Shown one piece after another: positions 3,009-3,367 of a stretch of DNA of 33,918 bases. The stretch is from Chloroflexota bacterium. GTDB taxonomy: Bacteria; Chloroflexota; Dehalococcoidia; Lucifugimonadales; Lucifugimonadaceae. The position numbers were made by a program, and so were the translations under genes. The stretch spans positions 1 through 33,918 of the forward strand of contig PAXI01000005.1 of the NCBI GenBank assembly GCA_002714425.1, read 5' to 3'. Below the pieces are notes generated by a model that saw only the letters and a list, made by a program, of their open reading frames with translations, ran no database searches and was not told where the DNA came from. Every line of letters starts with the position of its first letter. Position 1 is the first letter of the stretch.

Positions 3009-3194
3009 ATGAAATTAACTGCATACAGTGTGAAATTAAAAAAAGTAGTAGAAATTGCTAACCCTGAAATAGTTACAATGAAAAACGGTAGAAAAGCCGT
3101 AAAAGGAGTTGCAGCTGAAGATCCTACATCTAAAGTGTTCAGAATCTTAGGAGCAAATGACTTAGCTGAAGCTGAAAAGCTTATAAACGGCTAA
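3009..3194 (+). CDS. Small DUF5679-like protein lacking all zinc-ligand cysteines
   Basis: A 61-residue, lysine-rich basic protein. Its core resembles the DUF5679 zinc-ribbon family as I remember it: YxVKxKK near residues 6-12, a central VTMKNGRKAVKG (22-33), and a C-terminal KVFRILG (42-48). In that family the YCVKCK and GTCPVCGTK positions carry four cysteines. Here the corresponding stretches read YSVKLK and GVAAEDPTSK, and the protein contains no cysteine at all. The residues after 48 (ANDLAEAEKLING) look helical. The gene is monocistronic, with a consensus-like promoter, a strong ribosome-binding site (AAGGGAG) and its own terminator, which suggests abundant, regulated expression. Molecular role unknown; a nucleic-acid or ribosome-associated role is a guess from charge and size. 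Confidence 0.82.
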   Translation: MKLTAYSVKLKKVVEIANPEIVTMKNGRKAVKGVAAEDPTSKVFRILGANDLAEAEKLING

Positions 3195-3266
3195 AAAATA
3201 AATTTTTTTCTCATTAGATTTTCATAGTTTTTTCCCGAATCAATGAAATAATTGAATGAGATATAA

Positions 3267-3310
3267 AGGTTGAGTGTAACGAATACTCCTACACTCAACC
3301 TTTTTTTTTT
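3267..3310 (+). terminator. Intrinsic terminator after the DUF5679-like gene
   Basis: A 12-bp perfectly paired stem (3267-3278 with 3290-3301) around an 11-nt loop, followed by ten T residues (3301-3310). This is the strongest factor-independent terminator I can see in the window. It lies 72 nt after the stop codon of the small gene. On the other strand the T-tract is weak, so it would only partly stop transcripts from the minus-strand NTF2-like gene. Confidence 0.92.
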
Positions 3311-3367
3311 GTTTTTATAAAATCAAATTAAAAAAAAGTATTTTAAAATTTTTTCTAATATTTATAT

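Follow-up and report, generated by a model that had tools for sequence, protein, structure and literature searches.

The window, a stretch of 33,918 nucleotides from a Chloroflexota bacterium, harbors a short gene for a protein that resembles the zinc ribbons of the family DUF5679 and contains no cysteine, which raises the question of whether this protein is a decaying remnant, has acquired a new function or replaces its zinc-binding relative. The gene extends from position 3009 to 3194 on the forward strand, starts with ATG and encodes 61 amino acids (pI 9.6) without a single cysteine or histidine. Its product has the core VTMKNGRKAVKG and KVFRI in the C-terminal part, and reads YSVKLK and, at the position of the GTCPxCG knuckle, GVAAEDPTSK, just as a preliminary description of this DNA had reported; none of the four cysteine zinc ligands of DUF5679 is left, in agreement with the joint loss proposed there. 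A search against the Pfam model PF18930, also suggested in that description, gave a divided answer: DUF5679 was the sole match of the window protein but a weak one (18.4 bits against a cut-off of 27, E 0.0024), while 21 of the 25 orthologues matched at E<=0.01. Profile-profile comparison of 25 Cys-less or nearly Cys-less sequences with 20 sequences carrying all four cysteines (Cys4) yielded 99.4 % with an E of 1.5e-21 over 52 columns. The two results together indicate that the homology is real; by sequence comparison, the window protein is homologous to the zinc ribbon family DUF5679 over the whole domain, with the core TMKNGRKA common to both forms, yet lies outside the family as curated. A literature search found no text mentioning DUF5679.

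The loss of the ligands is not restricted to this assembly. With each species represented by one genome, a scan recovered a near-identical Cys-less protein from many SAR202/Dehalococcoidia assemblies; searching whole genomes across the order widened its occurrence to several families, and in total the Cys-less form is present in dozens of SAR202 (Chloroflexota) genomes, which represent independent assemblies. Two congeners (L004 and L005) encode a protein 100 % identical to that of the window, with 12 synonymous and no non-synonymous codon differences between the window genome and each of them, and the median dN/dS over pairs was about 0.07, indicating strong purifying selection. Cysteines retained by the same gene in close relatives would have pointed to a sequence error, but the congeners have the identical Cys-less protein. 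As dozens of genomes share this form and it is under purifying selection, the four ligands are lost and not mis-sequenced. A decaying or mis-assembled zinc ribbon without function might have explained the Pfam score below the cut-off; however, the identical protein despite 12 synonymous changes, the low dN/dS, the number of independent assemblies, the conserved operators and the confidently predicted fold (see below) already refute this explanation, to which we give practically no credence.

The relatives display graded stages of cysteine loss, with forms retaining one cysteine (GYCMGLKK), two (YCLPLRRMC) or a Cys3Asp set (YCVKDKK...CPxCG). In a tree of 61 columns, in which the inner order is unsure, every Cys-less and partial form fell on one side of a branch with 100/99 support. 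Cys-less proteins of archaea and of SAR202-f5 clustered with a support of 100/97, and this grouping suggests, at the level of sequence, a transfer of the Cys-less gene between bacteria and archaea. Two further observations concern variants of the domain. Aspartate in place of the second cysteine is found in many DUF5679 proteins of Chloroflexota (L087, L089, L092, L096-L101, L103, L104 and others), possibly forming a Cys3Asp site. At one locus (L178:527-1108 in genome G424), a Cys-less DUF5679-like domain is fused C-terminally to a putative SprT-like metallopeptidase (17.9 bits, below cut-off); a cold-shock-like gene and a third copy of DUF5679, which has decayed, come next.

The proposal that the fold is kept without metal is supported by a confident AlphaFold2 model of the metal-free form (pLDDT 88.6), in which strands are predicted at residues 4-7, 12-23, 29-35 and 42-46 and a helix at residues 49-60. 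Most Cys4 proteins end ahead of this C-terminal helix. Compared with Cys4 DUF5679, the Cys-less form thus has no metal ligands, a rebuilt second knuckle and an added C-terminal helix, and, as described below, new regulation. Foldseek identified no match of the Cys-less model in the PDB at E<=0.001, a PDB sequence search with either the Cys-less profile or the Cys4 paralogue gave nothing useful, and a search of PHROGs with the Cys-less protein returned no phage family.

A zinc ribbon that lost its ligands has been described before in Cren7 (PMC5906684), and Cren7 and Sul7d resemble the Cys-less protein in being zinc-ribbon descendants without ligands that kept a small beta barrel (PMC5906684). 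Both DUF5679 forms might then be small DNA-compacting proteins like Cren7, the Cys-less form being a metal-free nucleoid protein. Such a role would agree with the pI of the window protein, with the lack of an HU-family (PF00216) match in the window genome (95 % complete), with the similarity of the Cren7 loop KDPETGKYFR to AEDPTSKVFR of the window protein, and with Cren7 chains ranking near the top in VIA-align (Z up to 3.8, rmsd 2.6 Å, 50 residues). However, a Z of 3.8 is within the noise and tied with unrelated folds, Foldseek gave nothing significant, and hhalign against Cren7 reached a probability of 4 % with the Cys-less alignment and of 31 %, over CPxCG only, with that of the Cys4 proteins. 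Homology to Cren7/Sul7, as suggested by the loop and the VIA-align rows, is therefore not supported. Unlike the window protein, Cren7 is an archaeal chromatin protein, and we know of no zinc regulation of Cren7. A DNA-compacting role appears unlikely to us; as it is not strictly exclusive with a zinc-sparing logic, it could be the molecular role beneath it.

The region around the gene suggests that it is expressed. The preliminary description had credited it with its own promoter, a terminator and a strong ribosome-binding site. A sigma-70 type promoter TTGACA-16-TATTAT is predicted at 2920-2947 on the forward strand with 11 of 12 consensus bases, although shuffled sequence yields as many promoter-like matches of 9 or more. 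The ribosome-binding site is present, and downstream of the gene an intrinsic terminator was identified at 3265-3311 (forward strand; -19 kcal/mol, z -6.2), consisting of a hairpin with a 14-pair outer stem at 3265-3303 followed by a T run. A simple terminator scan missed this hairpin, probably as its loop is longer than the scan allows, but we judge it to be real. Together with the low dN/dS, these elements favor the earlier view of a gene that is probably expressed and under selection rather than decaying.

The promoter is flanked by two copies of the palindrome TGATACnnnGTATCA. Putative operator 1 (TGATACCCTGTATCT, one mismatch) lies at 2884-2898 upstream of the -35 box, with an equivalent second site kept in both congeners, and putative operator 2 (TGATACAAGGTATCA, exact) at 2965-2979 downstream of the -10 box. 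The 1.4 Mb genome contains only two exact matches to TGATACnnnGTATCA, operator 2 and a site before znuC, and six sites with at most one mismatch. Of the four that are not at the window promoter, two are intragenic. The remaining two, the only further near-matches in intergenic DNA, precede znuCB and zur-znuA: the first is located 37 bp upstream of znuC, and the second overlaps the start of zur, a Fur-family gene with a His-rich znuA as the next gene. Pfam confirmed FUR, ZnuA and ABC-3 at these loci. The palindrome is hence common to the window gene and the znu genes, and Zur is its presumed binding protein.

This arrangement recurs in related genomes. Eight relatives contained 11 exact sites, compared to none for a reversed control pattern, and 9 of the 11 precede znuC, znuA or the Cys-less gene; of the other two, one falls within a gene and one is found upstream of a gene for a metal-type periplasmic binding protein. 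A TGATACnnnGTATCA-type footprint occurs upstream of eight orthologues (L004, L005, L008, L014, L017, L021, L032, L034), and the layout of two sites around the promoter is kept in L004, L005, L017 and L021 despite changes in the surrounding sequence. A second type of palindrome (type B, TGAGAATnATTCTCA) is found before the orthologues L018 and L025-L028 and also before znuA in L024. Among 21 Cys4 genes, none has the TGATAC site, and the second palindrome type is matched, with two mismatches, in one (L282). Three GC-rich SAR202 loci (L250, L252, L253) have a zinc linkage but no recognisable box, and three orthologues in multi-copy genomes (L015, L019, L039) have neither box nor zinc neighbor. 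As a separate observation, the Peripla_BP_2 lipoprotein-like gene downstream of an exact TGATACnnnGTATCA site (L336:1550-3013, genome G569) is a possible further member of the regulon.

The putative regulator is a Fur-family protein encoded together with zinc-uptake genes (FUR, 69 bits; the next gene ZnuA, 154 bits). Among the NCBIfam models, that of Fur gave it a higher score (60 bits) than that of Zur (21 bits), with the Fur, PerR and Zur models all far below their cut-offs, and for this reason its metal was deduced from the adjacent ZnuA, which matches the zinc-uptake family and carries a long His/Asp-rich loop. Loops of this kind are typical of zinc carriers. The ambiguity of the Fur-family models could also mean that the regulator senses manganese or iron and that the Cys-less protein forms part of a response to metal starvation in general and not to zinc shortage specifically. 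In favor of this, box type B resembles what we take to be generic Fur boxes, and the fold of the Peripla_BP_2 protein behind one exact site is also used for iron carriers. Speaking for zinc are the family and the His/Asp-rich loop of the ZnuA next to the regulator, a COG0523 GTPase gene that follows the Cys-less gene in L023 and is found next door in Marine Group III archaea, and the nature of the lost ligands, as the Cys4 set in zinc ribbons binds zinc. A response to manganese or iron thus seems very unlikely, and a Zur-type regulator remains the preferred reading.

A link to zinc is further suggested by the genes surrounding the Cys-less copies. Although the window gene itself is not beside znu genes, many SAR202 genomes carry a Cys-less gene next to znuA, znuBC or zur. 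In an unsupervised count of the neighbors of SAR202 Cys-less genes, ZnuA, ZnuC and ZnuB were the three most recurrent families; the neighbors of Cys4 genes are unrelated housekeeping genes. A zinc-uptake or COG0523 neighbor was present in 5 of 10 Cys-less sequence clusters compared to 1 of 21 Cys4 loci (Fisher 0.007), whereas counting the same sample per locus instead of per cluster gave a p of 0.07, which is not significant. The sample of this test comprised loci not picked for zinc genes, while a first contingency had included loci chosen for nearby Fur hits. In Marine Group III archaea, the Cys-less gene is situated between znuA and znuC within the znu operon in all 6 genomes having the gene, with a Cys4 copy close by in all six and the COG0523 zinc GTPase next door in several. 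The window genome (95 % complete) gave no cobW/COG0523 (PF02492) match, and this part of the classical zinc clusters is therefore absent there. We found no literature report on zinc regulation in SAR202, and none combining SAR202, zinc and znuA. Two observations on neighboring genes stand apart. The first gene of the znu operon in Marine Group III encodes a small ribbon-helix-helix-like protein that ends in a His/Cys tail (HNHGP..C.C.LGCC; L212:2752-2991, L210:9134-9373, L211:7270-7509), a candidate archaeal zinc regulator, of which the L212 copy has no Pfam match. At L285:5036-8893 (genome G442), a Cys4 DUF5679 gene adjoins zur and znuABC, perhaps representing the ancestral arrangement.

The frequent position within znu operons, directly after znuA, and the retention of a nearby Cys4 copy in Marine Group III would also be expected if the Cys-less protein had a new function in zinc uptake or trafficking itself, e.g., as a partner of ZnuABC, instead of replacing the Cys4 protein. 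However, lacking cysteine and histidine, the window protein has no obvious zinc ligand, and the core shared with the Cys4 form is closely conserved. In addition, the Cys-less form occurs in seats (conserved gene neighborhoods) otherwise taken by the Cys4 form. The Cys-containing paralogue, the presence of which the preliminary description had proposed to check, was found in the window genome at C10:14733-14870 between pheS and an aldo/keto reductase (AKR) gene. This pheS-DUF-AKR seat is held by the Cys4 form also in L269 and L271, and by the Cys-less form in seven genomes of a sister genus, in which, incomplete as they are, no Cys4 gene or other copy was found and the Cys-less gene has no zinc neighbors. 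Similarly, the infB-rbfA-truB-DUF seat is occupied by the Cys4 form in six genomes and by the Cys-less form in L213, where again neither a further copy nor a zinc neighbor was found. As far as gene order can tell, this takeover of a Cys4 seat in two lineages suggests that the Cys-less protein performs the function of the Cys4 protein without zinc, and it disfavors a neofunctionalised subfamily, one of the two explanations offered earlier. A function in zinc uptake or trafficking is improbable in our estimate.

If both forms serve the same purpose, one expects constitutive expression of a sole copy and regulation of a backup. This fits the distribution of an operator or zinc neighbor, which was found in 0 of 14 genomes with a sole Cys-less copy and in 18 of 21 multi-copy genomes (Fisher 3e-7, not phylogeny-corrected; the 14 single-copy genomes represent three clades, and the test overstates independence as orthologues are tied by ancestry). 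Together with the seat swaps, this distribution supports the interchangeability of the two forms.

Taken together, the most likely reading in our view is that the Cys-less gene encodes the C-minus counterpart of the Cys4 C-plus protein, a paralogue that works without zinc and is under repression by a Fur regulator of Zur type. When zinc is sufficient, the zinc-loaded regulator encoded beside znuA would occupy the two TGATACnnnGTATCA operators and keep the gene off, and the cell would use the Cys4 zinc ribbon made beside pheS, which presumably binds the metal. When zinc is scarce, repression would be lifted jointly for the Cys-less gene, znuCB and zur-znuA. The metal-free fold would be held by the beta core, the rebuilt second loop (AEDPTSK for CPxCG) and the added helix, and the protein would take over the job of its Cys4 counterpart, thereby sparing zinc. 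Zinc shortage, the presumed selective pressure, had already been named in the preliminary description, but a simple adaptation of the family to zinc-poor water does not describe the case well: as the genome keeps the Cys4 form and the Cys-less gene has two copies of the znuCB and zur-znuA operator, the gene is probably a regulated backup.

Cys-less replacement is established for ribosomal proteins and, by prediction, for DksA and others (PMC6103462, PMC2770081). As in the Zur-regulated C-minus ribosomal paralogues (L31/RpmE2, L33, L36, S14, S18 and others; PMC6103462), a small zinc ribbon occurs as a pair of Cys4 and Cys-less forms, and the Cys-less gene carries a Zur-type site or lies within a zinc-uptake locus; DUF5679 is, however, a different family, its pair is found in SAR202 Chloroflexota and Marine Group III, and its Cys4 gene is fully replaced in some genomes. 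The DksA2 type of Zur-regulated paralogue without the C4 zinc finger (PMC2770081) likewise lost all four cysteines and follows Zur sites, often with znu and COG0523 genes as neighbors, but is an unrelated protein, whereas Cys-less DUF5679 gained a C-terminal helix and a rebuilt loop. The C-plus/C-minus principle is thus known; its extension to the family DUF5679 and to the lineages SAR202 and Marine Group III appears to be new. Since two of the usual seats of DUF5679 adjoin translation genes (pheS and infB-rbfA-truB), our guess would be a role in translation or another core housekeeping process. More tentatively, and possible rather than probable in our opinion, DUF5679 may be a housekeeping protein of bacteria and archaea whose abundance and zinc consumption have gone unrecognised. 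Associated with translation or the nucleoid, it would be so large a zinc sink that marine SAR202 and Marine Group III evolved a metal-free version and exchanged it, some streamlined lineages now having only the zinc-free form.

With these results, the DUF5679 domain gains a first biological handle, as cells appear to pay to do its job without zinc. In cultured bacteria, ribosomal proteins and a few enzymes are well-known cases of zinc-sparing replacement by Cys-less paralogues; here it appears in SAR202, a lineage that is abundant in the ocean and uncultured. In Marine Group III, the presumed replacement sits inside the zinc-uptake operon, and the tree suggests that it was passed between domains. 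The gradient from genomes with both forms and regulation to those with the Cys-less form alone, unregulated and in the old seat, provides a natural series for the loss of a metal site, and ocean metatranscriptomes could be screened for the Cys-less gene as an indicator of zinc stress.
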